NCBI GenBank assembly: GCA_023512475.1
Contig: JAILZL010000019.1
Span: forward strand, 1 to 52,507
Direction of reading: 5' to 3'
Length of the DNA stretch: 52,507 nt
From: Syntrophobacterales bacterium
GTDB taxonomy: Bacteria > Desulfobacterota > Desulfobaccia > Desulfobaccales > 0-14-0-80-60-11
Position numbers and translations under genes: made by a program. Below, in pieces: positions 23,692 to 52,507 of this stretch (the first letter of the stretch is position 1; the number at the start of each line of letters is the position of its first letter). The notes under the pieces are model-generated. The model was not told where the DNA came from. It was given only the letters and a program-made list of their open reading frames with translations, and searched no databases.

Positions 23692-23707
23692 TGGCATGTC
23701 CTTTGCT
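23692..23707 (+). promoter_or_regulatory. Sigma-54 promoter of the fliK-flgD-flgE operon
   Basis: TGGCATGTCCTTTGCT matches the -24/-12 consensus TGGCAC-N5-TTGCW. The invariant GG (23693-23694) and GC (23705-23706) are exactly 12 bases apart. It lies 41 bases before the fliK ATG. Control by RpoN and a flagellar enhancer-binding protein is the usual scheme for hook genes, which supports the call. Confidence 0.8.
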
Positions 23708-23747: not shown

Positions 23748-25511
23748 ATGCATGCCGGAAGCGCCGCCGTCATCTGTCCCACCCCCGCCAGCCCCCGGAG
23801 GGCCCAGGGCGCCGCCCGCCCGGCCCCGGATCTCTTCCAGGCCTGTTTTCAGGGCCGCCTGCTGCAGCACCTCCACAAGCAAGGCAAAACCGGAACCGCC
23901 CCGGCCAGGCTGCAGGACAGCCGGCCCGGCCCCCCGGGGCCCCAGAGGCGCCCCTCGGCCGAGATGGTGCGCCCCGGGCGCCGGCGGCCGGACCCGTCGT
24001 CATCCCTGGGCGCGGCAGAGGCGGTCATTCCGCCGGAAAGGATCCCGGAGCTGGCTCAACGCCTGACCGCCGCCGGGGTGCCACCGACGCGGGTGCAGGA
24101 ATTTTTGGCCCGGCCCCAGGTGCAGGAGCAGGGGGTGAGCCTGGCGGAGGTCCGGGAGTTTTTCCCGGAGCTGGCGGGAGGGCGGGAGAAAGGCCCCGGA
24201 GCTGGCCCCCCGGGAGAGCCGGCGGTGCTGGCGGAGCTCCTGGAGCTTTTGGCCGCATCCCCCGGCGGCGGAGTGAAAATCCCCGGGGAACGGCGGCCGG
24301 AGGCCCAGCTCCTGCTTGCGGCCGCGGGCCTGAGCTCCGAACAGGCCGCCCGCCTGCTGTGGCATCCCGGGACGGCGGACCATGGCCTGACCCCCGAGCA
24401 GGTGCGGTCCCTGTGGCTTCAGGCCCACACCCCCCGGGAGGCTGCCGGCGCCGGCTCGCCGACGCCCCCGGCCTGGCGGCAGCTGTGGCAGAAGCTGCAG
24501 CTCCCGGCGGAGGCCTGGCCGGACCTGAAGGCGGCCTTGCAATTCCTGGGGGTTTCCCCGGACCAGCTGGCCCGCCTGGAGGAATCCGCTGCCACCGGCA
24601 TCCCCCTCGCGCAGGTGTGGCGGCTGCTGCAGAACCCCCCGGGGGAGCAGGACGCCCCCCAAACCCCGGAGGAGCTGGCCCGGGGGCTGGCGGAGCGCCT
24701 GGAGCCGGACCCGCACCGGGCCGCGGAGGCCTGGGCGGGGCTCTTGCGGCAGGCCGGACTCTCGGAGGAGATGGTGGCCCGCCTCTGGGGCGGGGTGAGT
24801 CCCGGCTCCACCGCGGAGCTCCGAGCCCGCCTCCTGAAACTGGCCCCGGAGCCGGAGCCGCCGCCGGCCCAGGACAGCCCCAAACCCCTGTACCTGCCGG
24901 CCCGGCTGCAGGTGGAGCCCCTGCCCCGGCAAACCGGGGGGGAAGAGCGGTCCGCGGAGCAGGGGACCGGAAACCCGTCCTTTGCCGGTCACCCGACGCC
25001 CTCCCCTGCCCCGGGCGGTCCGGAGGGCGCTTACGCCGCGGCGGCCCAGGAATTACCGCCCGTTATGGTCCCCTTCCCGGGAGGCCCGCCCGGTCCGGCA
25101 CAGGCTTATCCCGCCTGGCGCCAGGCCGTCTGGTCGCAGATTGAAAATACGGTCCTGCAGCACCTGCAGCCGGGCCGGACCCAGGTGAGTCTCACCCTCA
25201 GCCCCCCGGAGCTGGGCCGGGTGGAGCTCACCCTGGAGCTGCAGGGCCAGCGGCTGCTGGTGCAGGCCCTGGTCTCCCGGCCGGAGGTGGCGGAGCTGGC
25301 CCAGGCGCAGGTGGAGCAACTGGTGCAGGCCCTCTCCCGCCAGGGGCTCATCCTCAGCCAGTTCCAGGTGCAGATGCCCCCCCTCCCCGGCACGGCGGTG
25401 GCCGCTGCCACCCCCGGCGGCCGGTCGGGCTTCCGGCGCCCGGAGGACGGCTCCCCTCACCACCACGCCTCCCGCCCCCGGGGGCCCCGGGGGGTGGATG
25501 TGGTGGCCTGA
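23748..25511 (+). CDS. fliK: Flagellar hook-length control protein
   Basis: 587 residues. The C-terminal domain (about 470-545) has the FliK/Flg_hook pattern QVSLTLSPPELGRVELTLEL followed by VQALVSRPEVAELAQAQVEQL and LSRQGLILSQFQVQ, the part that flips the export switch when the hook is complete. The N-terminal 450 residues are the ruler part. They are very rich in Pro, Ala, Gly and Glu and contain helical repeats of the form PxELAxxLxxAGxxPxxVxEFL. AAGGAG lies nine bases before ATG 23748. The order fliK-flgD-flgE and the sigma-54 promoter fit a hook operon. Confidence 0.92.
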   Translation: MHAGSAAVICPTPASPRRAQGAARPAPDLFQACFQGRLLQHLHKQGKTGTAPARLQDSRPGPPGPQRRPSAEMVRPGRRRPDPSSSLGAAEAVIPPERIPELAQRLTAAGVPPTRVQEFLARPQVQEQGVSLAEVREFFPELAGGREKGPGAGPPGEPAVLAELLELLAASPGGGVKIPGERRPEAQLLLAAAGLSSEQAARLLWHPGTADHGLTPEQVRSLWLQAHTPREAAGAGSPTPPAWRQLWQKLQLPAEAWPDLKAALQFLGVSPDQLARLEESAATGIPLAQVWRLLQNPPGEQDAPQTPEELARGLAERLEPDPHRAAEAWAGLLRQAGLSEEMVARLWGGVSPGSTAELRARLLKLAPEPEPPPAQDSPKPLYLPARLQVEPLPRQTGGEERSAEQGTGNPSFAGHPTPSPAPGGPEGAYAAAAQELPPVMVPFPGGPPGPAQAYPAWRQAVWSQIENTVLQHLQPGRTQVSLTLSPPELGRVELTLELQGQRLLVQALVSRPEVAELAQAQVEQLVQALSRQGLILSQFQVQMPPLPGTAVAAATPGGRSGFRRPEDGSPHHHASRPRGPRGVDVVA

Positions 25512-25948: not shown

Positions 25949-26629
25949 ATGAGTGTCAGCACCACGGCGGCGGATACCGCCACCAGGGCCGCGGCGGGCC
26001 AGTTCACCCTGCCCGCGAAGACCTTGGGCAAGGAGGACTTCCTCAAACTGCTGGTCACCCAGCTGCGTTTCCAGGACCCCATGGCGCCGGAGGACCCCAA
26101 GGACTTCGTGGCCCAACTGGCGCAGTTCAGCTCCCTGGAGCAGCAGCTCAACGCCAACACCAACCTGGTGGCGGTGGGCAAGGTAGTGCAGCATCTGGCG
26201 GACTCCCTGGGTATGTCCCGGGGCGTGGCGCTCCTGGGCAAGACCGTGCGGGGCGTGGGCAACGCCCTCACCATCTCCGGCGGCCGGGGGGTGAGCGCCT
26301 CCTATCAGCTCCCCCAGGACGCCAGGCAGGTCACCGTCGCCATCTTCGACGCCTCCGGCAAAACCATCCGCACCCTGGAGCTGGGGAGCCAGGCCGCGGG
26401 TCTCCGGCAGTTCACCTGGGACGGCAAGGACTCCCAGGGCAAGACCGTGGCCGACGGCAGCTACTCCTACCAGGTGCGGGCGGTGGACCGCCAGGGGACG
26501 GGGCTGGAGGTGACCAATTACTTCACCGGCACGGTGCAGGAGGTCTATCAGGACTCCGGCGGCGTCTGGGTCAAGGTGGACGGCCGGCCCGTCCTGGTGG
26601 ACAACATCATCTCGGTGGGAGCGAACTGA
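25949..26629 (+). CDS. flgD: Flagellar hook capping/assembly protein
   Basis: 226 residues. The N-terminal motif LGKEDFLKLLVTQLRFQDPMAPEDPKDFVAQLAQFSSLEQ is the FlgD signature. It is followed by a FlgD Ig-like domain (VTVAIFDASGKTIRTLELGSQAAGLRQFTWDGKDSQGKTVADGSYSY). It caps the growing hook and is needed for FlgE polymerisation. GGAGG lies directly before ATG 25949. It sits 437 bases after fliK, an unusually long gap for this operon. Confidence 0.96.
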   Translation: MSVSTTAADTATRAAAGQFTLPAKTLGKEDFLKLLVTQLRFQDPMAPEDPKDFVAQLAQFSSLEQQLNANTNLVAVGKVVQHLADSLGMSRGVALLGKTVRGVGNALTISGGRGVSASYQLPQDARQVTVAIFDASGKTIRTLELGSQAAGLRQFTWDGKDSQGKTVADGSYSYQVRAVDRQGTGLEVTNYFTGTVQEVYQDSGGVWVKVDGRPVLVDNIISVGAN

Positions 26630-26700: not shown

Positions 26701-27927
26701 ATGTCACTTTCCACCGCCATGTACAGCGGCTTAAGCGGCCTCAACAGCTACGGCGAGGCCATGACCGTGGTGGGCGACAACATTGCCAACCTGAACGCCG
26801 TCGGCTTCAAGTACAGCAGCGTCCATTTTGAGGATCTCATGGCCCAGCTGGTGTCCACCGGCTCCGGACCGGGCCAGGTGGGGCGGGGCTCCCGCATCTC
26901 CGACATCTCCACCGTCTGGGCCCAGGGCTCCCTGGAGACCAGCGCCGATGACGTGGACGTGGCCATCACCGGCACCGGCTTCCTCATCGTCCGGGACCCC
27001 CTGGGCGGCAGCCTCTTTTACACCCGGGACGGCAATTTCTCCCTGGACAAGGACGGCTATCTCATCAACGCCCACGGCTACCGGGTGCAGGGCAAGCTCA
27101 TCGACCCCGTTTCCAAGACCCCCACCGGGGTGGACACGGATATCACCATCAGTCAGAATTACGCCGCCCCCCGGGCCTCCTCGGCGGTGGAGATGGTGCT
27201 GAACCTGGATGCCAATGCCGACCCCGGGGCCTTCTATTCCACCTCCCTCAGCCTCTATGACCGGCTGGGCAACCTGCGCACCCTGACCACCACCTTCACC
27301 AAGAGCGCCGACAACACCTGGACCCTGAGCGCCGCCCTGGACGGCACCGATATCACCGCCCTCATCACCGATCAGGGCGGCGGCGGCCCCTCGGACATGG
27401 TCTTCGACCAGAACGGCACCATGGTCTCCGGCGGCCTCTACGCCATCAACCTCAACGCCTACAATATCGGCAACGTCAACCTGGAGCTGCGCAACACCAG
27501 CGGCGGCAGCACCACCCAGTATGCCGCCAGCTCGGTGACCAACTACGCCTCCCAGGATGGATACGGGCCGGGCTTTCTGCAGCGCATCTCCATCAACAAC
27601 GAAGGCATCATCACCGGGCACTACTCCAACGGCCAGATCATTCCCCACTACCAGCTCACCCTGGCCCGCTTCAACGCGCCGGGCAAACTGCGCCGGGAAG
27701 GCAGCAACCTCTACACCGAAACCCAGGATTCCGGGGTGCCCCTCACCGGGGCGCCGGGCAACAACGGTCTGGGGCGCATCAATTCCAACTCCCTGGAGCA
27801 GTCCAACGTGGACCTGGGGAATGAATTCGTGCGCATGATCCTGTATCAGCGGGCCTTCCAGGCCAACTCCCGCATCATCACCACCACCAATAACATGATG
27901 GAGGAGGTCCTGGCCCTGAAACGGTAA
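26701..27927 (+). CDS. flgE: Flagellar hook protein
   Basis: 408 residues. The N-terminal rod/hook motif is SGLNSYGEAMTVVGDNIANLNAVGFKYS, and the C-terminal one SLEQSNVDLGNEFVRMILYQRAFQANSRIITTTNNM. Both form the coiled D0 core of the hook filament. The middle (about 90-350) contains the hook-specific domains, rich in Thr, Asn and Gly. AAGGAGGGG precedes ATG 26701. It is the last flagellar gene here; the downstream 490 bases carry no gene. Confidence 0.97.
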   Translation: MSLSTAMYSGLSGLNSYGEAMTVVGDNIANLNAVGFKYSSVHFEDLMAQLVSTGSGPGQVGRGSRISDISTVWAQGSLETSADDVDVAITGTGFLIVRDPLGGSLFYTRDGNFSLDKDGYLINAHGYRVQGKLIDPVSKTPTGVDTDITISQNYAAPRASSAVEMVLNLDANADPGAFYSTSLSLYDRLGNLRTLTTTFTKSADNTWTLSAALDGTDITALITDQGGGGPSDMVFDQNGTMVSGGLYAINLNAYNIGNVNLELRNTSGGSTTQYAASSVTNYASQDGYGPGFLQRISINNEGIITGHYSNGQIIPHYQLTLARFNAPGKLRREGSNLYTETQDSGVPLTGAPGNNGLGRINSNSLEQSNVDLGNEFVRMILYQRAFQANSRIITTTNNMMEEVLALKR

Positions 27928-32560: not shown

Positions 32561-35500
32561 TCAGGCGTGCTCGGCCGTGGCCGAAGCAGCCGCCATCTCC
32601 CGGACGGCCTCCATCTCCGCCTGCAACAGGTGATGGCGGGGATCCAGGGGGTTGAAGCGCAGGGCCTTTTGATAGCACTCCAGGGCCTGGAGGAGCTCCC
32701 CCTGCTCCAGCCGGGCCCGGGCCTCCTCCCGGAAGGGGTTGGGGTTCATATCATGCAGCACCGCCTGGCGGCGGCCCTGGGCATCCCGCACCCACTCCAG
32801 ATGCAGGCCGTCCTCCCGGTAGTAGCTTTCATCATCGGGGACCAGCCGGCCCTGCCATTTGCTGCGAAAATAACGGCAATTCTCAAGCTCCCGGGCAAAG
32901 CGGCCCTGGGTCTGGCTTTCCAGGTGATAGACCACCGCCTGGGGCTGGTAGAGAAGGCGCCAGCCCGCCTCCCTCAGCCGCAGGCACAGATCCACATCCT
33001 CAAAGCCGTTGAGGAAGTTTTCATCAAAGAGGCCCACCGCCAAAAAGGCGGCGCGCCGCACCACAAGACAGGCGGCGGTCAGCACCTGGAATTCCCGCAC
33101 CTTATTCACCGCCGGATGGTCCCGGTGCAGATAGCGGTACAAATGATACACCCTGCCCTCGCGATTGAAGACCACCCCGGCATGTTGCACCGAGTCATCG
33201 GGATAGAGGAGCTTGGCCCCCACCGCGGCGATCGTTTCGTCTGCCCGGATCGTGTCCAGGAGGGCCTCCAGCCACCCCGGGGTGACCCGGGTGTCGTTGT
33301 TCAGGAAGAGGAGAAACTCGCCCTGGGCGGCCCTGGCCCCCTGATTGCAGGCCCGGGAGAAGCCCAGATTGGCGTCGTTGCTGATGAGTTTCAGCCGGCC
33401 GGCTGCGGCCTGCTGCGCCAGAAACACGCCGCTGGCGTCCGTGGAGGCGTTGTCCACCACGATGAGCTCATAAAGCCCGGCCGGCGTGTGCTCCCACAGG
33501 GAATTCAGGCAATCCTGGGTGAGCTCCAGGTGGTTGTACACCGGAATGATGATGGACACCGGCGGCGGGGCGGCCGCGGACCCCGGAGGGGCCTCCGGGG
33601 GAGAGCCGGAGGCTTGCCCAGGGCCGGCGGGTGGAAGGGAGGGCGCCACCGGCTCCTTGGGCGCCACGGCAGAGGTCTTTTCCGGCGGCGGGGACATCCC
33701 CGGCCGGGCCAGCACCTCCGTCAGGAACCGCCGCTGGCGTTCCTTCAGCTCCGGCCTGTCCGCCACATAAGGGGCATAGCGGTCATGGATGAGCTTCAGG
33801 GTGCGGACAAAATCCTCAGGGATCCGACTGGTCATGGTGCTGCCGTCGCCGCACCAGGAATACTCCGCCGTCACCTTTCTGATGTGAAGGAACTCCTCCT
33901 TCAGGGCCAGGCGGATCCACAGGTCCCAATCCTCGTGGCTGGTGAGGGTTTCATCAAAGAGGCCCACGTCCTCCAGACAGGCCCGCTCATGCATGACGCA
34001 GAGGACCGGGAAGAGGTTCTGCACCAGGAGGCTGTCCCGGTCAAAGTCATGGGAGAGGCAGACCTCCCGGCTCACCGTCACCCAACGGCCCCGGTCCCGG
34101 ATTCTGGCGGCCTGGCAGGCATCGGTGTAGGCCACCCGGAAGCGGCTCTGCTCCAGCGCCGTCACCAGAGTCTCCACATGCTCCGGATAGAAGAGGTCGT
34201 CATCGTCCAGGTAGGCGATGTACTTCCCTCGGGCCAGGCGCAGGCCGGTGTTGCGGGCCGCGGCCAGCCCCCGGTTGCGGTCATGGCGGACGTAAGTGAG
34301 GGTGCCGGTGCGGTTCAGCCAGGCCACCAGGCTCTCCACCTCCACCCCGCCGTCGTTCACCACGATGATCTCCACCCGGGGGTAGGTCTGGTGCAGGATG
34401 CTCTCCACCGCCTCCACCAGCATCTGGGGGCGGTTGTAGGTGGGCACGATGACGGAGATCAAAGGAGGCTCGGGCGGAGGGGCGGCCGCCGGGGGTTCTG
34501 GTGCGGCGGTTGCCGGGGGGGCGGGGAGCTGCCGCCGCGCCGCCGCCTCCCGGCGGGCCAGCCGGGCGAAATGCTCCTGCTCCGCCCGCCGGGCCTGGGA
34601 GATGCCCTCCTCCCTTTTCCGCCAGCAGTAAAGGGGCTCCGGGAGATTGGCAACCTGATAGCGCTCCGCCAGCCGCAGCCACAGGTCGTAGTCCTGGGCG
34701 TAGGCATAGCGCTCGTTGTAGCCCCCCACCTCCAGCAGGGCCTGGCGGCGCACCATGACGCTGCCGTGGCCGAACCAGTTCTGCTCCATCAACCCGGCCC
34801 GCAGCTCCTCCGGGTCGGTGAGGACCGGCACCAGCCCCGTGAGGCGCCCCCTTTCGTCCATCAGATAGTAAGGGCTCCCCACCAGGGCACAGTCGGGGTG
34901 CTCCTCCAGAAACTGCCGCTGGCAGGCCAGCCTCTCGGGGAGGGAGAGATCGTCGGCGTCCATGCGGGCGATATAAGGGGCCCGGGCCTGGGCGATACCC
35001 CGGTTGAGGGAGGCGGTCAGCCCTATCCGGGTGGGATTGCGGAGCACCGTGATGCGGCAGTCGGTGAATTCCTCCAGAAGTTGTGGGGTGGCATCGGTGG
35101 AGGCGTCATCCACGATGATGAACTCAAACTGGGGGTAGGTCTGGTTCAGGATGCTCTGCACCGCCTCCTTGAGATACAGGGCGCCGTTGTGCACGGCCAT
35201 TACCACGCTGACTCCCGGGTCCGCAAGGCGGCCGTCGGGCTCCCGGCGCAGGGGCACCCCCGCATCCCACCCGCCGCCGTAAAACTGCCGCACCCGGTCG
35301 TTGTGTCCGGGCAGATACACCAGACCCCGGTCATCGATGAAATCATACTCCTTCTTTTCCAGCACCTGGCGGTAGAGGCGGCTGGTGGGAATCCCCACAA
35401 AGACGTTGTACCAGGTGACGGTGGGCTGAATCTCCGCCAGAAGGGCCCGGGTCAGCTCCAGATCCCGGGGCTCCTCTCCGGGGGTGCCCACAATGACGCT

Positions 35501-36469
35501 GGCCGCGGTGCGCAGGCCCAGCTCCCGGCACCAGCGGAAGGCGGTGCGGATCTGCTCCACCGTGATGCCCTTGTGGAGACGCTCCAGAACCGCGGGGGAG
35601 CCGCTTTCCACCCCGAAATAGAGGCCCGCCAGCCCGGCCCGCTGCATCAGGGCCAGAAGCTCCCGGTCCAGGGCGTCCACCCGGGTTTCGCAGGCCCAGG
35701 TGATCTTCAGGCCCTTTTGCAGCAAAAGGCGGCAGAAGGTTTCCGTGCGCTCCCGGTTGACGGTGAAATTGTCCTCCCGGAAATAGATGCCCTGGGCGCC
35801 GTAGGTGTGCACCAGGTATTCAATGTCGGCCACGATCCGCTCAGCGCTGAAGCAGGTGTACTTGCGGCCCCAGACGGAGCCCACGGAGCAGAAGGTGCAG
35901 GCGTAGGGACAGCCCCGACTGGTGTTGAGGGTGAAGACCGGCGCCCCGGGAAACCAGTCCCCCGTCCAGTTGTAGGGCTGATGAATGAAATAATCCCAGG
36001 CGGGCCGGGGCAGGTCGTCCAGGTTCTCCAGGCGGGGGGCCCGGATGAGACGGCGGCTGTCCCGGCCTTCCACCACCTCCAGGATGACCCCCTCCCCTTC
36101 GCCCTGCACCACATGATCCACAAACTCGGGGATGGTCTCCGGGGCCACCGCGGCGTGGGGGCCCCCCACGATGATCTTTCCCCGCCAACGGCCGGTCTGG
36201 CGCAGATATTCCAGGCGCCAGAGCATGCGCCGGGTGTCCCGGAAACAGATGGTGTTGGCGTACAGGCCCACCACCTCGATGTCATGCCGCCAGAGATAGT
36301 CCGTCTCCAGGAAATTGCTGGGTTTGAGATAATTGTCGATGAAAAAGACCCGGTGCCCGGCCTGGCGCAGCACCGAAATGAGAAAGCCCAGGCCCAGGGG
36401 CGGGCGCTTTTCGGTGGTGGAGAAGGGGGTCTGCGACGGCGCCGCGGAGGTGGCCAACAGGACGTTCAT
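32561..36469 (-). CDS. Fusion: B12-type radical SAM + three GT2 glycosyltransferases + TPR
   Basis: 1302 residues. Residues 1-140 are a cobalamin-binding-like domain (PPLGLGFLISVLRQAGHRVFFID, VGGPHAAVAPETIPEFVDHV). Residues 180-400 are radical SAM with the cluster C187-x3-C191-x2-C194 (RGCPYACTFC), and with GLYFGVESGS and VGTPGEE. Then come three family-2 glycosyltransferase domains: 419-625 (VDDASTD, RMDADD), 671-915 (VNDGG, YLDDDD) and 971-1190 (VDNASTD, LNNDT). They are joined by Pro/Ala-rich linkers at 640-670 and 925-970. A TPR-like unit (1245-1295) ends the protein. All catalytic motifs look intact. It probably assembles and modifies (for example methylates) a surface glycan. GGAGGCG precedes the ATG; the acyltransferase-methyltransferase gene ends 15 bases upstream. 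Confidence 0.9.
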   Translation of the reverse strand: MNVLLATSAAPSQTPFSTTEKRPPLGLGFLISVLRQAGHRVFFIDNYLKPSNFLETDYLWRHDIEVVGLYANTICFRDTRRMLWRLEYLRQTGRWRGKIIVGGPHAAVAPETIPEFVDHVVQGEGEGVILEVVEGRDSRRLIRAPRLENLDDLPRPAWDYFIHQPYNWTGDWFPGAPVFTLNTSRGCPYACTFCSVGSVWGRKYTCFSAERIVADIEYLVHTYGAQGIYFREDNFTVNRERTETFCRLLLQKGLKITWACETRVDALDRELLALMQRAGLAGLYFGVESGSPAVLERLHKGITVEQIRTAFRWCRELGLRTAASVIVGTPGEEPRDLELTRALLAEIQPTVTWYNVFVGIPTSRLYRQVLEKKEYDFIDDRGLVYLPGHNDRVRQFYGGGWDAGVPLRREPDGRLADPGVSVVMAVHNGALYLKEAVQSILNQTYPQFEFIIVDDASTDATPQLLEEFTDCRITVLRNPTRIGLTASLNRGIAQARAPYIARMDADDLSLPERLACQRQFLEEHPDCALVGSPYYLMDERGRLTGLVPVLTDPEELRAGLMEQNWFGHGSVMVRRQALLEVGGYNERYAYAQDYDLWLRLAERYQVANLPEPLYCWRKREEGISQARRAEQEHFARLARREAAARRQLPAPPATAAPEPPAAAPPPEPPLISVIVPTYNRPQMLVEAVESILHQTYPRVEIIVVNDGGVEVESLVAWLNRTGTLTYVRHDRNRGLAAARNTGLRLARGKYIAYLDDDDLFYPEHVETLVTALEQSRFRVAYTDACQAARIRDRGRWVTVSREVCLSHDFDRDSLLVQNLFPVLCVMHERACLEDVGLFDETLTSHEDWDLWIRLALKEEFLHIRKVTAEYSWCGDGSTMTSRIPEDFVRTLKLIHDRYAPYVADRPELKERQRRFLTEVLARPGMSPPPEKTSAVAPKEPVAPSLPPAGPGQASGSPPEAPPGSAAAPPPVSIIIPVYNHLELTQDCLNSLWEHTPAGLYELIVVDNASTDASGVFLAQQAAAGRLKLISNDANLGFSRACNQGARAAQGEFLLFLNNDTRVTPGWLEALLDTIRADETIAAVGAKLLYPDDSVQHAGVVFNREGRVYHLYRYLHRDHPAVNKVREFQVLTAACLVVRRAAFLAVGLFDENFLNGFEDVDLCLRLREAGWRLLYQPQAVVYHLESQTQGRFARELENCRYFRSKWQGRLVPDDESYYREDGLHLEWVRDAQGRRQAVLHDMNPNPFREEARARLEQGELLQALECYQKALRFNPLDPRHHLLQAEMEAVREMAAASATAEHA

Positions 36470-36484
36470 GAATCGCCTCCGGTT

Positions 36485-37501
36485 TCAGCCTTTTACCGCC
36501 AGGAAAAAGTTGCCGGCGATTTCCACCTGCGGGAAGGGACGCAGCAGGGCCCGCAGTTCCGCCGGGGTGTATTCGTGGATATGGGCATAGGTGGCGGGCG
36601 GGGAGCCGCTGCCGTCTTTCAGGGGCGTGGAGCCCACCAGCCGGCCCCCGGGCCTCAGCACCCGGTAAATCTCCGCCACCGTGCGCCGGGCCTGCAGCCG
36701 GGTGAGGTGCTCCAAAAGCTCAAAGCAGGTGACCACCTCAAAGGACTGGTCCGGAAAATCCAGGGCGGTGCAGCTCATCTGGCGGCAATCCAGGCCGTAG
36801 CGCTCCCGGGCCTGGAACACCGCCTCCTCGCTGTAATCCACCCCGATGATCCGGCCGCATTGCTCCCTGAAGAGCTGGGTGAGATACCCTTCGCCGCACC
36901 CCAGGTCCAGGACGGTGTCGCCGGGCCTCAGGTGGCCAAGACCGAACTCCGCCCGGCGCCGGATGTATTCCCAGTAGGGCTCGGGGGTAAGATCCACCGA
37001 GCAGCGCTCTGAGGTACGGAAATCCCAGGTGTCCCGGGGGGCCCGGTCTTTGATGATCCGGGCCGGGTTGCCGGCGATGACCTTGGCCATGGGGAAGGAT
37101 CGGGTCACCACTGCGCCGGCCCCCACCACCGTGCCTTTACCGAGGGTCACGCCGTCCAGGATGATGGCCCCGGCCCCCAGCCAGTTGTCGCCCATCAGGG
37201 TGATGCCCCGGCCGGAGTTGGGCTGCAGGGTGATGGGCCGGTCGAAGGAATCGAAGCTGTAGTTCTGGGCGTAGAGGCCGCAGTGCGGGGCGATGATGCA
37301 CCAGTCGCCGATCTCCACCCCGCCTTTGGCATGAATGACCGTGTAGTGATTGATGACCACGTGATTGCCGATGACGATGAAGCCGGTCTCCGGACGCAGG
37401 ACTACCCCCGCTTTGATCTGCACGTGGTCGCCGATGACCACGTTTTCCGGCTCCTCGATGATGGCCTGGGGTGAAATGACTGAGTGGCGGCCGATGTGCA
37501 T
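36485..37501 (-). CDS. Fusion: hexapeptide acyltransferase + SAM methyltransferase
   Basis: 338 residues. Residues 1-150 are a left-handed beta-helix acyltransferase with hexapeptide turns (IEEPENVVIGDHVQIKAGVVL, IGDWCIIAPHCGLYA, LGKGTVVGAGAVVTRSFP, VIAGNPARIIK), the same end as sugar O-acetyltransferases. Residues 190-320 are a class I SAM methyltransferase with motif I VLDLGCGEGYLTQLF, VDYSEEAV, and the post-motif block FELLEHLTRLQARRTVAEIYRVLRPGGRLVG. Each half resembles enzymes that modify lipopolysaccharide sugars, so one polypeptide may both acylate and methylate the glycan. ATG 37501 follows GGAGGGGG. It lies directly before the radical SAM-glycosyltransferase gene in one operon. Confidence 0.9.
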   Translation of the reverse strand: MHIGRHSVISPQAIIEEPENVVIGDHVQIKAGVVLRPETGFIVIGNHVVINHYTVIHAKGGVEIGDWCIIAPHCGLYAQNYSFDSFDRPITLQPNSGRGITLMGDNWLGAGAIILDGVTLGKGTVVGAGAVVTRSFPMAKVIAGNPARIIKDRAPRDTWDFRTSERCSVDLTPEPYWEYIRRRAEFGLGHLRPGDTVLDLGCGEGYLTQLFREQCGRIIGVDYSEEAVFQARERYGLDCRQMSCTALDFPDQSFEVVTCFELLEHLTRLQARRTVAEIYRVLRPGGRLVGSTPLKDGSGSPPATYAHIHEYTPAELRALLRPFPQVEIAGNFFLAVKG

Positions 37502-37662
37502 GCCTGTGCCCCCTCCACCGGTTACCCGGCCCTCTCCGGCGGCCGGCCTTCCCTGGGGGTAAGTGCAACAACCGGGCCACAGGGACCATCTTGACAATGT
37601 CGCAGTTTTCCTGGAAGCTAAGGCGGAGCCGGCACCCCTTTCCGGCAGAATTTTCCCGCAGC

Positions 37663-46369: not shown

Positions 46370-47233
46370 TCAAGGGGTTACGGCCATGGGCCGTGACCCT
46401 TTTTCTTCTGCGGCGGGTTTGGTGAATATATTGGTGAATAAGCTTCCATATTTCCCAATGGCCTTCCGTTTGTGATCCTGGGCCAGGTGGGCGTAACGCA
46501 AGGTCGTGCGGATATCTCGGTGTCCTAAAAGGTCCTTCACCGTGGCCAGGTCCACCCCGTTCATCACCAGATGGCTCCCCACCGTATGCCGCAGGGTGTG
46601 GATGGTCACGTCCAGAAGCCCTGCCTTTTTTACCGCCAGGCGGAATCCGGAGTAAATGTCCCGATAAGGGCGGCCGTCCTCCTTGCAGAACACATACTCA
46701 CTCTCAGGGTGCCGGGGCAACCCGGCCAGAAGCTGCACCGCCTCCGCCGCCAGGGGAAGCCGCAGATCCCGGCCCCCCTTTGCCTCCTCCGCCGGAATAT
46801 GCAGAGAAGCGTGGGCCAAGTCAATCTGGCTCCACTTCAGGTTGAGCACGTTGGCCTTACGCAGGCCCGTAAGCAAGGCAAACTCCATCATGGCCCGCTG
46901 ATGGGCAGGAAGGTGGGCCAGAAAACGAGCGATCTCCTCATGGCTCAGGAACCTGTTCCGTTGACGGGTTTTGCGGAAAAGCTTCACCGGCTTGGCGGGG
47001 TTTCCCTTCATCAACCCCCATTCCATGGCTTTGGTAAACATGTGCTTCAGACAGGCCAGCTCCCGGTCCACCTCAGTAAAGCCGGTTTCCTTGCTTCGCT
47101 CGGCCTTCCACCGTTCCACTAACCAGGGGGAGATGTCCACCAGCCGCCTGGGACCGAAAAACCGGGTGACTTGATTAATGTAATGGCGTTTGTTCACCTC
47201 GTAGGATTTGAATATTTCATAGTCCTCCCTCAC
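46370..47233 (-). CDS. Tyrosine recombinase (phage-type integrase)
   Basis: 287 residues. The catalytic residues are all present: Arg125 (TGLRKANVLNLKW), Lys152 (AKGGRDLRLP), His212-x2-Arg215 (HTLRHT), His238 (LLGHRDIRTT) and Tyr247 (LRYAHL). The core-binding domain fills about 10-90. The usual arm-binding N-terminal domain is absent: the protein starts with GTG at 47233 directly at the core-binding part, with an in-frame stop a few codons upstream. It is therefore either a short form or N-terminally clipped. The C-terminus ends inside the tRNA-Leu terminator, as expected for an element inserted in this tRNA. DNA upstream of it is AT-rich, unlike the rest of the window. Confidence 0.92.
   Translation of the reverse strand: MREDYEIFKSYEVNKRHYINQVTRFFGPRRLVDISPWLVERWKAERSKETGFTEVDRELACLKHMFTKAMEWGLMKGNPAKPVKLFRKTRQRNRFLSHEEIARFLAHLPAHQRAMMEFALLTGLRKANVLNLKWSQIDLAHASLHIPAEEAKGGRDLRLPLAAEAVQLLAGLPRHPESEYVFCKEDGRPYRDIYSGFRLAVKKAGLLDVTIHTLRHTVGSHLVMNGVDLATVKDLLGHRDIRTTLRYAHLAQDHKRKAIGKYGSLFTNIFTKPAAEEKGSRPMAVTP
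46375..46404 (+). terminator. Terminator of tRNA-Leu, inside the integrase 3' end
   Basis: The 11-bp stem GGGTTACGGCC / GGCCGTGACCC (one G-T pair) with a three-base loop is followed by TTTTTCTTC. It also encodes the last residues of the integrase on the other strand. Confidence 0.85.
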
Positions 47234-47442: not shown

Positions 47443-50400
47443 TTAATAGAAAATATGCTCAAGTTGGTTGATCTGTTCCGAGAGTGAAGCATCATTTTTG
47501 ACCACCATTACCCGATAGCCTTTTTCCTCCAAGGCTTCCCTCTTTTTCCTGTCCTCCTCGGCCTGGCGGGGGTTATCATGGGCGGGGCCGTCGATGAAGA
47601 TGCAGACGCCCGGAAGCTTCCCCCGCTGATAATAAAAATCGACTTGGACCGCCAGGTCGCTCTCCGGGCAATATTGGGCATAATCGGGAAGCCTTAATTT
47701 GTTGGCATAAAGATAATCCAAAAATTTTCTTTCCAGGGAAGAAGCGGGGTCCAGGCGCCGGATCAACCACTGGTATTGTTCGTCATATGTCCGCCCCCCG
47801 GAGAAAGGGATGATTTCCGCCCGGCTCAGCTTAAAAAGGAATTCTTTCACCAGACTCCGGTCAATGAACCGGTGATCCAGCTGGTTGGCATAGCTGAGGA
47901 GGCAGTCATAGCAGGCCCGCCCGCACGGCTCCTTCTTATCCTCCACATCCTCCCCGGTTTCCGGGTCATAATGGCAGATTCTCAGGGCCTCCCGTGCCAC
48001 CCGGGCCAAGGCGGTCTTCTCCTTGAGCATTCGCTCCCAGACACCGGTGCCCCCTTCGGCCGCCTCCCAAAGGAGGATTCTCTGGTGCTCCCCCTGACCC
48101 AGCAGCTCCACCGCCACTTCCTGTTCTTCTATCTGATACAGAACCTGGAGGCCCCGCTGCAGGGCAAAGGAGAAAGTTTTGAGGAAGGCCGGATCTGAGG
48201 CTTCGGGCGTCAGGGGCCGCAGGAACAGGAGATTGCGGGTATCAGTCACATACGGTTTCACCCCGGAAATGATCTGGCTCCGGGCTTGGCCCCCGGGTCC
48301 ATGCTCCGATAGGTCCTCTATCCTTCCCACCCACGACCCGCTGCGGCTCTCCAGAACAAAGCCATTGCGCTCCGGAGACCGCCGCCAGCCGTGGTTGATG
48401 CGCCACAATTCGGCTTGGGGGATATAGGTTACCTCCAGGAGGAGGGCTCCCTCTCCCTGTCCCTTGACCGTGCAGGTTGTAGCCTCGGTCCCGGAGGGAA
48501 ACCAAAAGTGGGTGGTGAGGTGATACCCTTCCCGGGCCCGCTCTTCCTCTTCGGCGGTGATGCGCAGCCAGCGTGACGTCCTGACCGTGGGCTGATCGAA
48601 CAGCCTCTGGGGGAATTGGCTGGTGGCGGCATCCAGCAGGGTCTGGCAATATCTGCACCGGTCCGCCCGGGCTTCATCCCGGGGGTGAATAAAGCCGCAC
48701 TTCAGGCAGAGTTTCGCCCGGGAGAGGCGGCGCTCCAGCCCGCCGGCGGGAATGAGGCAGGCGCTCACCCGGTGTTTGCGGCCCTCGTGATAGATGAGGT
48801 TCAGCGGCCCGAACTCCGCCAATCCCAGGAAGCGGGGCCGATCGATACTTTCCCGCTGCTCCCCGGTCCACACCAGGGCCCGCAGCGGCAGGCGGGGGAA
48901 GTTGTAACCGGGCAGGAAGCCTTCGGTGGCCAGATAGCGATAGGGATAAAAATCCGATTCTGTATAGGCCTCCCCCCGATTGAGGAGCAGATCAATCTCC
49001 CGCAGGGCCTCGTTTTCCCGCTGCTTGGCCCGCTCCCGCTCCTCCCGGTTCTGGCGGGGATGGTCAATGGCGCGCCGAGCCTCGTCGCGCTGCTCGATGG
49101 CCGCCTGATATAATTCCCGCCAGCGGTCCAGGGCCCGATCCAGGGCCTGGGGGGCCTGTTGCACCACGTCCGCCAGCCATTTAGGGCTGTACCAGGAGGA
49201 GGCGGTCACGGGCGGTCCCACCAGCTCCACCACCTGGCGGCAGGCGGTGAGGATTTTCTCCTTTTTGTCCTCGGAAATCTCCAGGTCGGCGGCCACTTCC
49301 GGCAACAAGGGGTATCCCGGGCTCTCGAGATCCAAAAGATCGGCCATGGACCTTCTCAGATCCAGACCCAGGCAGGCCAGCCAGACGGAATGCAGATGCG
49401 CCTCCAAAAGGTCCCGATGGCCCAGGTCCATCCGGGGCGGGGCCACCGCCCCCGCAATCATCTGGGTGCGGCGGCGGAAAAAGTAATGGTCATGGGCGTT
49501 GCCGTAACTGCTGAAGACGATAACCAGGGCCGGCCGGCCCCCCCGGCCCGCCCGGCCGCTCCGTTGGGCGTAATTGGCCGGGGTGGGAGGGATATTCCGC
49601 AGATGCACCACCCCCAGGTCGGCGATATCCACCCCCAGCTCCATGGTGGGGGAGCAGAAAAGGGAGGCTAATTGCCCCTGGCGGAAAAGCTCCTCCCGCT
49701 CCTGGCGTTTTCCCCCCTGCACCTGACCGGTGTGCTCCTTGCCGGTGATCCCCGCCAAAAAGCGGGCCTGGCTTTCATAAAGCCGCCGGAAATAGCGGTT
49801 GGCTTCCCGGGTGAGCCCCTCCGGGCGGCGAAGATACAAGGCCTTGGCCCGCACCGGATCCGGTCCCGGCGCCGCTCCCGTGCTCTTTTCCCAGATCAAG
49901 GCATCGCCCCGGATCTGGACGCCGAAGTCCCGCCCCTCCCGGCGGATGACGGTGAGGATGTGCCCCTTCAGCACTGCCACCAGGTGACGGATCAGCTCTT
50001 CCACCTCAGCGGCCGTGAGATCCTCCTCTATCCCCCAGGTATGACGGGACCGGAGGTAACGCCCGATTGCGGAGCGAAACCCCAGCCCCACACCCTCGCC
50101 CCGGTTGACCGCCACCCCGGGAAGAATCGCCACCGCACTCTGACGCAACCGTTCATTATTTTCAAAGCACCACGGTTCCCGAAGAGAGTCATTCACCCGG
50201 CGCACCAGGGAGCGGGTATGCTCCTCCTCCAAAAGGTCAGTGGCCAGCACCAGCCGGCTGCGCAGGTGGTCCAGCACCGCCCGCAGCACCTCCTCCCGTT
50301 TGTCTCCGGACACCCGGGAGGCCGCCGGCGCGCCGCGCCAGAGAGCGTCATCCCGGGCCAGTTCCTGCAAACCGGCATAATTAAGGCGCAAAAGCCCGCA

Positions 50401-52507
50401 TTGCTCCAGGTTGGGTTGGGTCACCCGCCAGGCCCGGGCCAGATCCTCCAGGGCCAGGTAATCCAACAGGTCAATCATGGCCCGCCTGGCCCGCTCAAAA
50501 CCCGGGCCCGAATCCACCGGCTCCTGCATATAATCCTGGGGGGACAGATCCAGAGCCCGGAAGATGGCCGGCCCGAGACGATCCAAGGTCAAAGGACCCT
50601 CCGTATCCAGGGCCCGCACCAGGGCCCCCCGCAGCATGACCACCTGGACAAAATCGTTGAGATGCCCGGCCTGGAGCGAAGCATCCTGGCGGTTGTCGGT
50701 GAAACTCAGCACCTTCCGGGCGCTTGGCTCCAGGGCGGCATCCTGACGCATGGCGCTGATGGCCGCGGCGTTAATGATGGTAGTGGCCGTGGAGCGCCCC
50801 ACCTGGCTGAGGGTGGTCAGCTTGCGGAAGTCGCTCTTTTCCTTAAGCCCATAAGCCGCCCGACAGCGCAGGCAGAGCATCAGGGGGCGGGGTTGAAACC
50901 AACCCGCCACCGCCCCCTCCCTGGCCTCCGGGCTCAAGGTGCCGTCAGGCAGGGCCCAAAATCCCCGGGGGCGGTGCTCCTCATATTTTTTCTTCAGCCG
51001 GAGCCCCTCGCGCCGGGTCTCCAGCCAGTCTTCCGGCAGGGCCTCCAGCTGGTCTTCCCACAGCCCGCCGTCCTCCAAAGAGAAGAACCCCGGCGTCCCC
51101 GCCAGGTCGTCATCGGAAAAAGTCAGTAACGGAGATCGGGGAATGAGGCGAAGGGCAGCCCCCTCCTGGATCAGGGACGCCAGATAATACTCCTGGCCGC
51201 ACTCCCGGCAGAAGGCCAAGGGGAACAATACCTTGGTCTGCTCCTCCGCCTCGGGGGCGGTATAGTGCCCGGCGGTGGTGAGGTAGCGTCTCTCCGGGGG
51301 CTCCAGGGTGGCGTAGACACTGCTCCCCGAAGCCAGAAACTGGTGCAGCCGGAAGGCAAAAAGGGGCTCCCCTGAAGGCAGGCGCACGGCATTGCCGGCC
51401 TCCAGCACCGCCCGCAGCCGCTCCCGGCACAAAGCCTCGTCCAGGCCGGTCCCCTGTGCCAGCCGGGACACCCCCTCTTCAAAGGAGATGGGGGCCCGGC
51501 GCACCAGACGGCCGTCTTCTTCCCTCAGACCGAAGGTTTCCTCCACCCAGGCCGCCAGGGGGTGGCGGGTCACCGCCTCCAGGGCCGCCTCCGGCGGTGG
51601 GGCCATGACCGCCGCCCGAAGCTCCGCCGGGGTGGCCGGGGCCGGCACCGCCACCACCCGTCTGAGAGTTTCATCCACCACCTGCCGGGCTGAAAGGGAA
51701 ATCCCGAACAGCTGCCCGGCGCTCTCGGCAATCCGGGCCCGCCGCTCCTCCCGGGTCCCTTCGGTGGCCAGGGTGGCGGAGGTGCCGATGAACTGGAGAT
51801 CCTCCCGGGCCGCCCGCTGTCTGACCCGGCGCAGCAGCATGGCCACATCCGCGCCCTGGCGCCCCCGGTAGAAATGCAGCTCATCCAGCACCAGGAACTT
51901 CAGCTCCTGGGTGGCCAACTGCACCAAGGGCCGCTCATAAGGCCGGATGAGCAGATACTCCAGCATCACATAATTGGTGAGCAGAATATGGGGCGGGTCA
52001 TTGATGATGCGGTTGCGGTCTTCAGTTTTCTCCTGGCCGGTGTAGCGGGCAAAGCGCACCGGGCAGTCCTTTGGCCAGTTATTTTCCTGAAAACGCTCCA
52101 GGGCGGTGAGCTGGCTGTTGGTGAGGGCGTTCATGGGATAGACCAGGATGGCCCGCACCGATCGCCGGGAAGGGTCGTGGCGGAAAATATAGTCAATGAT
52201 GGGGATAAGATATGTCAGGCTTTTGCCGGAGCCGGTGCCCGTGGTGACGATATAGGATTCGCCCCGGAGGGCCAGCATCAGGGCCTCTTCCTGATGGCGG
52301 TGCAGGCGCAGCTCCGGCCCGAAAAACCGGGCCGTCTCCGGGGTGATGAGGCCCCGGGCGGCGAGCTCCTCCAAGGTGGCACCCGGTTCATAGGCCGGGT
52401 TGAGCTGCAGCACCGCCTCGGGCCACATGTCGCCTGCGGCCAGGCGCTCCTGGACAAAGCCCTTCAGCCGCTCATCCAGGACATTGACAAAACTCTCAAA
52501 ATAATCC
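47443..52507 (-). CDS. Giant SF2 helicase with DUF1998-type and nuclease-like C-terminus (5' end cut)
   Basis: At least 1687 codons. The frame stays open to the window edge and reads sensibly there (DYFESFVNVLDERLKGFVQE before an internal ATG at 52428), so the true start lies beyond 52507. Helicase motifs: Walker A TGTGSGKS (52219-52242), DELH (51874-51885), motif III GTSATLA, motif VI QRSGRAGR (49543-49566). There are several CxxC pairs, including a zinc ribbon at about 48646-48710, and the DUF1998/MZB cysteines CGRACYDC (47902-47925). The C-terminal 90 residues (VQVDFYYQRG ... CIFIDGPAHD) look like a PD-(D/E)xK or Vsr-type nuclease. The size and layout recall DruE of Druantia and helicases of DISARM-like defence islands. 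Partner genes would lie to the right. Confidence 0.88.
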   Translation of the reverse strand, partial: DYFESFVNVLDERLKGFVQERLAAGDMWPEAVLQLNPAYEPGATLEELAARGLITPETARFFGPELRLHRHQEEALMLALRGESYIVTTGTGSGKSLTYLIPIIDYIFRHDPSRRSVRAILVYPMNALTNSQLTALERFQENNWPKDCPVRFARYTGQEKTEDRNRIINDPPHILLTNYVMLEYLLIRPYERPLVQLATQELKFLVLDELHFYRGRQGADVAMLLRRVRQRAAREDLQFIGTSATLATEGTREERRARIAESAGQLFGISLSARQVVDETLRRVVAVPAPATPAELRAAVMAPPPEAALEAVTRHPLAAWVEETFGLREEDGRLVRRAPISFEEGVSRLAQGTGLDEALCRERLRAVLEAGNAVRLPSGEPLFAFRLHQFLASGSSVYATLEPPERRYLTTAGHYTAPEAEEQTKVLFPLAFCRECGQEYYLASLIQEGAALRLIPRSPLLTFSDDDLAGTPGFFSLEDGGLWEDQLEALPEDWLETRREGLRLKKKYEEHRPRGFWALPDGTLSPEAREGAVAGWFQPRPLMLCLRCRAAYGLKEKSDFRKLTTLSQVGRSTATTIINAAAISAMRQDAALEPSARKVLSFTDNRQDASLQAGHLNDFVQVVMLRGALVRALDTEGPLTLDRLGPAIFRALDLSPQDYMQEPVDSGPGFERARRAMIDLLDYLALEDLARAWRVTQPNLEQCGLLRLNYAGLQELARDDALWRGAPAASRVSGDKREEVLRAVLDHLRSRLVLATDLLEEEHTRSLVRRVNDSLREPWCFENNERLRQSAVAILPGVAVNRGEGVGLGFRSAIGRYLRSRHTWGIEEDLTAAEVEELIRHLVAVLKGHILTVIRREGRDFGVQIRGDALIWEKSTGAAPGPDPVRAKALYLRRPEGLTREANRYFRRLYESQARFLAGITGKEHTGQVQGGKRQEREELFRQGQLASLFCSPTMELGVDIADLGVVHLRNIPPTPANYAQRSGRAGRGGRPALVIVFSSYGNAHDHYFFRRRTQMIAGAVAPPRMDLGHRDLLEAHLHSVWLACLGLDLRRSMADLLDLESPGYPLLPEVAADLEISEDKKEKILTACRQVVELVGPPVTASSWYSPKWLADVVQQAPQALDRALDRWRELYQAAIEQRDEARRAIDHPRQNREERERAKQRENEALREIDLLLNRGEAYTESDFYPYRYLATEGFLPGYNFPRLPLRALVWTGEQRESIDRPRFLGLAEFGPLNLIYHEGRKHRVSACLIPAGGLERRLSRAKLCLKCGFIHPRDEARADRCRYCQTLLDAATSQFPQRLFDQPTVRTSRWLRITAEEEERAREGYHLTTHFWFPSGTEATTCTVKGQGEGALLLEVTYIPQAELWRINHGWRRSPERNGFVLESRSGSWVGRIEDLSEHGPGGQARSQIISGVKPYVTDTRNLLFLRPLTPEASDPAFLKTFSFALQRGLQVLYQIEEQEVAVELLGQGEHQRILLWEAAEGGTGVWERMLKEKTALARVAREALRICHYDPETGEDVEDKKEPCGRACYDCLLSYANQLDHRFIDRSLVKEFLFKLSRAEIIPFSGGRTYDEQYQWLIRRLDPASSLERKFLDYLYANKLRLPDYAQYCPESDLAVQVDFYYQRGKLPGVCIFIDGPAHDNPRQAEEDRKKREALEEKGYRVMVVKNDASLSEQINQLEHIFY

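Follow-up and report, generated by a model that had tools for sequence, protein, structure and literature searches.

The glycosylation of flagellin is known in many bacteria, as is the decoration of flagellar glycans by ordinary methyl- and acyltransferases. In Listeria, GmaR combines a glycosyltransferase (GT) domain with tetratricopeptide repeats (TPRs) and adds N-acetylglucosamine to flagellin (PMC9638930). FlmG of Caulobacter (PMC7591256) is likewise a modular flagellin transferase, with an N-terminal flagellin-binding TPR domain, and in Pseudomonas syringae (PMC3927599) Fgt1/Fgt2 and VioT (1173 aa) build a multi-sugar flagellin glycan bearing acyl and methyl decorations, fgt lying upstream of fliC. 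Here, we analysed a stretch of 52,507 nucleotides (hereafter the window), which is contig 51 of the 2.78 Mb draft genome of a Syntrophobacterales bacterium whose relatives include Desulfobacca metagenome-assembled genomes (MAGs), and which carries on the reverse strand, at positions 32561..36469, a giant open reading frame (ORF) of 1302 aa joining a radical S-adenosylmethionine (SAM) domain to three family 2 GT domains and a helical tail. Judged by its context, this protein appears to be a variant of the modular flagellar glycosyltransferases: in Desulfobacca-type bacteria, it probably works in the cytoplasm as a modular enzyme, both building an O-linked glycan on the flagellar filament and altering it chemically, the target being presumably flagellin and possibly also FliD or the hook protein.

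Like GmaR, the giant protein would O-glycosylate flagellin as a soluble enzyme, and its helical tail or, in relatives, a TPR array may correspond to the helical-repeat part with which GmaR is proposed to hold flagellin; GmaR differs in having a single GT domain and no radical SAM domain, and in its C-terminal part, which doubles as an anti-repressor. FlmG is of the GT-B fold, uses pseudaminic acid and is without a radical SAM domain, while in the Fgt/VioT system methylation is the task of a separate ordinary methyltransferase gene, vioM, and no radical SAM enzyme is described. On the radical SAM side, the closest structure is the sugar-acting AprD4 (6fd2), a stand-alone enzyme of an antibiotic pathway with no GT fusion. 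The B12-dependent radical SAM enzymes MgmA, OxsB, TsrM, CysS and TokK share the same two-domain fold, and to our knowledge none of them is fused to a glycosyltransferase. In the literature searched, which left most subscription papers outside its scope, no paper combined flagellin glycosylation, radical SAM and glycosyltransferase, and no title or abstract described a radical SAM-glycosyltransferase fusion.

An initial annotation, made from the letters alone, had read the locus as a single 1302-residue chain with a C187-x3-C191-x2-C194 cluster, three GT2-family domains with acidic motifs, two Pro/Ala linkers and a TPR tail, and most of this description holds. Indeed, the ORF is one frame with an ATG start and no internal stop. 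It begins with a B12-binding-like Rossmann domain (aa 23-132, 36074..36403, on the reverse strand as are all parts of the ORF; PF02310, 41.9 bits for a cut-off of 32.1), followed by a radical SAM core (aa 182-341, 35447..35926; PF04055, 82.4 bits, with an AlphaFold2 model that aligns to 6fd2), in which the CxxxCxxC motif lies exactly at C187/C191/C194 (35888..35911) and is invariant among 33 aligned relatives. This motif within its core domain places the protein in the radical SAM superfamily, and the N-terminal B12-binding-type domain, over cut-off and with the fold of OxsB, TsrM and MgmA, is the one expected of class B (cobalamin-type) radical SAM enzymes. PF00535 covers three stretches of the ORF (318 bits), each of which shows in its sequence the acidic metal motif and catalytic Asp/Glu of family 2 GT-A domains, GT1 and GT3 also being modelled: GT1 (aa 417 to about 650, 34520..35221; MDADD and AQDYDLWLR), GT2 (aa 666-900, 33770..34474; LDDDD and HEDWDLW), a domain type kept in Nitrospira flagellar loci, and GT3 (aa 969-1208, 32846..33565; LNNDT and FEDVDLCLR), all three found by Pfam and placed by our own domain models. 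The Pro/Ala linkers stand at about aa 644-668 (34466..34540) and 920-967 (33569..33712). Unlike them, the joint between the radical SAM domain and GT1 is a conserved spacer (aa 377-416, 35222..35341, GLVYLPGHNDRV..FYGG), aligned at near-constant length in fused relatives with the consensus GLVYLxGHNxRVxxFY. The C-terminal tail (aa 1245-1302, 32564..32737) is modelled as three helices and holds a single degenerate TPR (PF13414, 21.1 bits for a cut-off of 26.8), which corrects the TPR tail of the initial annotation; a full array is found between GT2 and GT3, at the place of the second linker, in relatives L022-L024. PF01973 (Maf/MptE-like) was not among the Pfam matches of the ORF, and the mycofactocin glycosyltransferase MftF (TIGR03965) was rejected as a match, its cut-off being barely exceeded, and solely by summing several GT2-family stretches.

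The model of the radical SAM-GT1 part (predicted local distance difference test, pLDDT, 88; predicted template modelling score, pTM, 0.81) has AprD4 as its nearest solved structure for the radical SAM domain (Z 34.5, 382 aligned residues, 23% identity, the whole of aa 1-400 being aligned), as do sequence searches, followed by MgmA (9ccb, Z 30.4), OxsB (about Z 30), then CysS and TsrM. The substrate of AprD4, a radical SAM diol dehydratase, is an aminoglycoside sugar, and related sugars are the substrates of methylases of class B, e.g. GenK (PMC5461906). With the model of AprD4-type diol dehydratases (NF033070), the ORF scores 119.9 bits, far below the cut-off of 500. Since AprD4 is the nearest structure, methylation and deoxygenation are both possible, and the fold alone does not decide cobalamin use; the ‘cobalamin-type’ label of the initial annotation is thus appropriate to the fold, as indicated by PF02310 and the models, but does not by itself imply the use of B12, the closest structure being AprD4 and the B12-dependent enzymes coming next. 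Among solved structures, GT1 is nearest to 6p61, a Leptospira glycosyltransferase, and to chondroitin polymerase, and GT2 resembles sugar-extending glycosyltransferases. For the model of GT3 with its three-helix tail (pLDDT 93), the 50 best fold matches are polypeptide GalNAc-transferases (template modelling score about 0.5-0.6), which is consistent with a protein acceptor, and GT3 is likely a protein O-glycosyltransferase.

The fusion is real and conserved. Both congeners carry a full-length giant gene (82-83% identity, no stops), and the radical SAM-GT1-GT2 core is also found in four genes of a second genus of the family (three genomes), in one Planctomycetota MAG (L026) and in one deltaproteobacterial MAG (L027), these non-congener relatives sharing 58-69% identity in the radical SAM-GT1 part. 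Conservation of the domain order, a check named beforehand, was thereby confirmed at full length within the genus and for the core across genera and phyla. A clade with full support, spanning at least two phyla, unites nine of the fused radical SAM domains, and a divergent fusion from Nitrospinota (L093) falls outside it. Around the core, additional N-terminal GTs and the TPR array between GT2 and GT3 account for variation, with lengths to 3706 aa. Next to the giant GTs of Nitrospira, radical SAM genes stand as separate genes, which are possibly similar in function to the fused domain; as strict unfused orthologues they were ruled out, because the fused domains form a clade of their own. Planctomycete and Nitrospirota loci (L026:8885-20002, L034:1606-13245, L031:9029-19516) also contain single open frames that span about 3500-3900 aa and encode several GT domains.

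The flagellar assignment derives from the distribution of the giant gene, its neighbours and a putative promoter. Among the 29 genomes of the order, a strong giant-GT match (E up to 1e-60) was found in 14 of the 16 flagellin-bearing versus none of the 13 flagellin-less genomes (Fisher test, 1.8e-6) and, counted by genus, in 6/6 with flagellin versus 0/5 without (0.002), both values treating genomes or genera as independent and ignoring shared ancestry. Numbers of first-look GT and radical SAM candidate matches are similar in the flagellin-less genomes, which are therefore not short of such genes in general; PF01973 (Maf) was found over its cut-off in none of the 29. Among 297 genomes sampled from the phylum, flagellin occurs in 42 of the 46 genomes with GT2/GT3-type domains versus 143 of the remaining 251. 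The giant GT thus displays, by both neighbourhood and co-occurrence, the link to flagellar genes by which modular flagellin glycosyltransferases are recognised.

As for the neighbourhood, fliC and/or fliD are present in 37 of 47 related loci, nearly all from Nitrospira, with at least 7 kb of downstream flank, the median distance from the giant GT to fliC/fliD being 5.5 kb (40 loci having one), and in the planctomycete L026 the fused gene ends 145 bp before fliD. In two genomes (G007, G008), the multi-GT gene adjoins genes of pseudaminic-acid type, recognised by eye. Within the window, fliK (hook-length control, 23748..25511; PF02120), flgD (hook cap, 25949..26629; PF03963, PF13860) and flgE (hook protein, 26701..27927; PF07559, PF22692, PF06429, PF00460), all on the forward strand, lie 4.6 kb from the giant gene, with glgA, an NYN gene and speE in between, and flgE is close to the giant gene in both congeners too. 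In the window's genus, and also in G016, of another genus, the giant gene is flanked by ArnT/LptG on one side and HppA on the other, and giant GT genes stand beside HppA in several other genomes as well; in the flagellin-less G009 and G010, the same LptG-ArnT-HppA slot is without any giant-gene domain.

A gene encoding a hexapeptide acyltransferase fused to a SAM methyltransferase (Pfam; 36485..37597, reverse strand, with a likely and conserved ATG at 37501) is located immediately upstream, at 15 bp from the giant ORF in the window and about 125 bp in the congeners, and is presumed to form one operon with it. Among the loci examined, this fusion was seen at this site in the window's genus only. 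We scanned the window for sigma-54-like promoters with a score over 12 informative positions, GG and GC being required, and only two sites reached 11/12: one (TGGCCCGGTTGTTGCA, 37564..37579, reverse strand) stands 78 nt before the likely acyltransferase-methyltransferase ATG, and the other (23692..23707, forward strand) 56 nt before the fliK ORF, as the putative promoter of the hook operon. By chance, 0.1 score-11 sites would be expected per window (first-order Markov simulation). The giant-operon site is kept in both congeners (L131, L132) with a score of 10; in L022, from G016, the sole site scoring at least 10 stands 100 nt before a start matching the first residue of the window protein, and a sigma-54-like site precedes fliD in all three congeners. 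A scan of the window for sigma-28-like sites detected none upstream of the giant operon. The bare sigma-54 pattern, allowing one mismatch, is not more frequent in the window than expected by chance, so that the promoter argument rests on position and conservation. A classic promoter split was observed in the G000 genome (contig C55, L124), where fliC is preceded by a sigma-28-like site and fliD by a perfect sigma-54 one, TGGCACGGGCCTTGCT.

Several observations weigh against a flagellar role, in addition to the shared ancestry disregarded by the Fisher values. Two genomes of the order (G018, G028) have flagellin without the giant GT, the LptG-ArnT-HppA slot of the flagellated G018 being, exceptionally, also without giant-gene domains, and the giant GT is also missing from many flagellated members of the phylum. 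The flagellin genes of the window's own genome are on other contigs; the Brocadia loci, L027 and L034 show neither flagellin nor FliD within the stretch examined; and non-flagellar genes, too, are under sigma-54 control. An HppA tree, tried as a species tree, placed G011 and family f2 oddly, and hence serves only to show that absences are scattered. Alternatively, the product could be a surface glycan that is secreted or linked to lipid (O-antigen, exopolysaccharide or outer-membrane glycolipid), the protein's link with flagella reflecting merely motile lifestyles that keep both, and this is suggested by the neighbouring LptF/LptG and ArnT-like transferase, whose functions concern outer-membrane lipids, by the location of L025 and L027 in deoxysugar loci (recognised by eye) and by the resemblance of GT1 and GT2 to polysaccharide synthases such as chondroitin synthase. 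We consider this unlikely, however, as LptG-ArnT remains beside HppA in flagellin-less genomes from which the giant gene is absent, these genomes are as rich in first-look GT and radical SAM candidates, linkage to fliC/fliD is tight in Nitrospira and L026, and none of the operon's genes was recognised as encoding a flippase, a polymerase or a priming transferase. The generic surface glycan of the initial annotation is accordingly replaced here by a flagellar one, which co-occurrence, neighbourhood and promoter favour.

Even within a flagellar system, the radical SAM part might modify the flagellar protein itself rather than a sugar, the fusion bringing both modifications to one substrate. The second-best structure, MgmA, is indeed a protein glutamine methylase (Z 30.4), but the best one is a sugar enzyme (AprD4, Z 34.5), and the conserved spacer ties the radical SAM domain to GT1, not to GT3, the domain resembling protein glycosyltransferases; such a role seems quite improbable. 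That the fusion is an assembly artefact, or a decayed and functionless gene, could be feared of a draft of 73 contigs; a mis-joined frame is nevertheless excluded by the same architecture, at 82-83%, in independent assemblies of two other species, where frames are open and cluster cysteines and GT motifs intact, and we give this explanation almost no credence.

For an enzyme acting on the flagellar filament, we infer the following steps. The tail and TPR parts would hold the flagellar protein, GT3 would put the first sugar on its Ser/Thr residues, and GT2 and GT1 would lengthen the chain. Immediately preceding GT1, the radical SAM domain would alter a sugar handled by GT1, with C-methylation as the leading candidate, AprD4-like removal of a hydroxyl as a weaker one and other radical chemistry slightly behind, and the acyltransferase-methyltransferase encoded upstream would finish the glycan with acyl and methyl groups. 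That one chain both builds a glycan and modifies it by radical chemistry, as proposed in the initial annotation, remains the natural reading, the order and spacing of the radical SAM-GT1-GT2 core being conserved across genera and phyla, but the ‘channelling’ then invoked does not follow from them. We tentatively propose, at somewhat less than even confidence, that a sugar undergoes radical C-methylation or deoxygenation while it is being assembled on the flagellar protein, a single protein serving as the assembly line in at least two phyla. If so, a radical SAM enzyme fused into the transferase would represent a new chemistry for flagellar glycans, with sugar modification and transfer coupled in one chain. 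In the nitrifying Nitrospira, the giant multi-GT genes next to fliC/fliD would likewise gain a suggested function, of which no description was found in the literature searched.

In loci of Nitrospira (e.g. L057:749-5860, L085:3457-8624), the region immediately preceding the giant GT and fliC/fliD contains a gene for a thiamine-diphosphate enzyme with a B12-type radical SAM gene on either side, the two being different, an arrangement suggesting that the sugars of Nitrospira flagella are branched or C-modified. Finally, the end of the window encodes on the reverse strand a DEAD/DEAH helicase (47443-52506) that has MZB and DUF559 parts and a length of at least 1661 aa. In PADLOC, it matches DruE3 of Druantia best (E 5.5e-92), and a tyrosine integrase (46370-47233, reverse strand) adjoins it; this stretch is possibly a defence island truncated where the contig ends.

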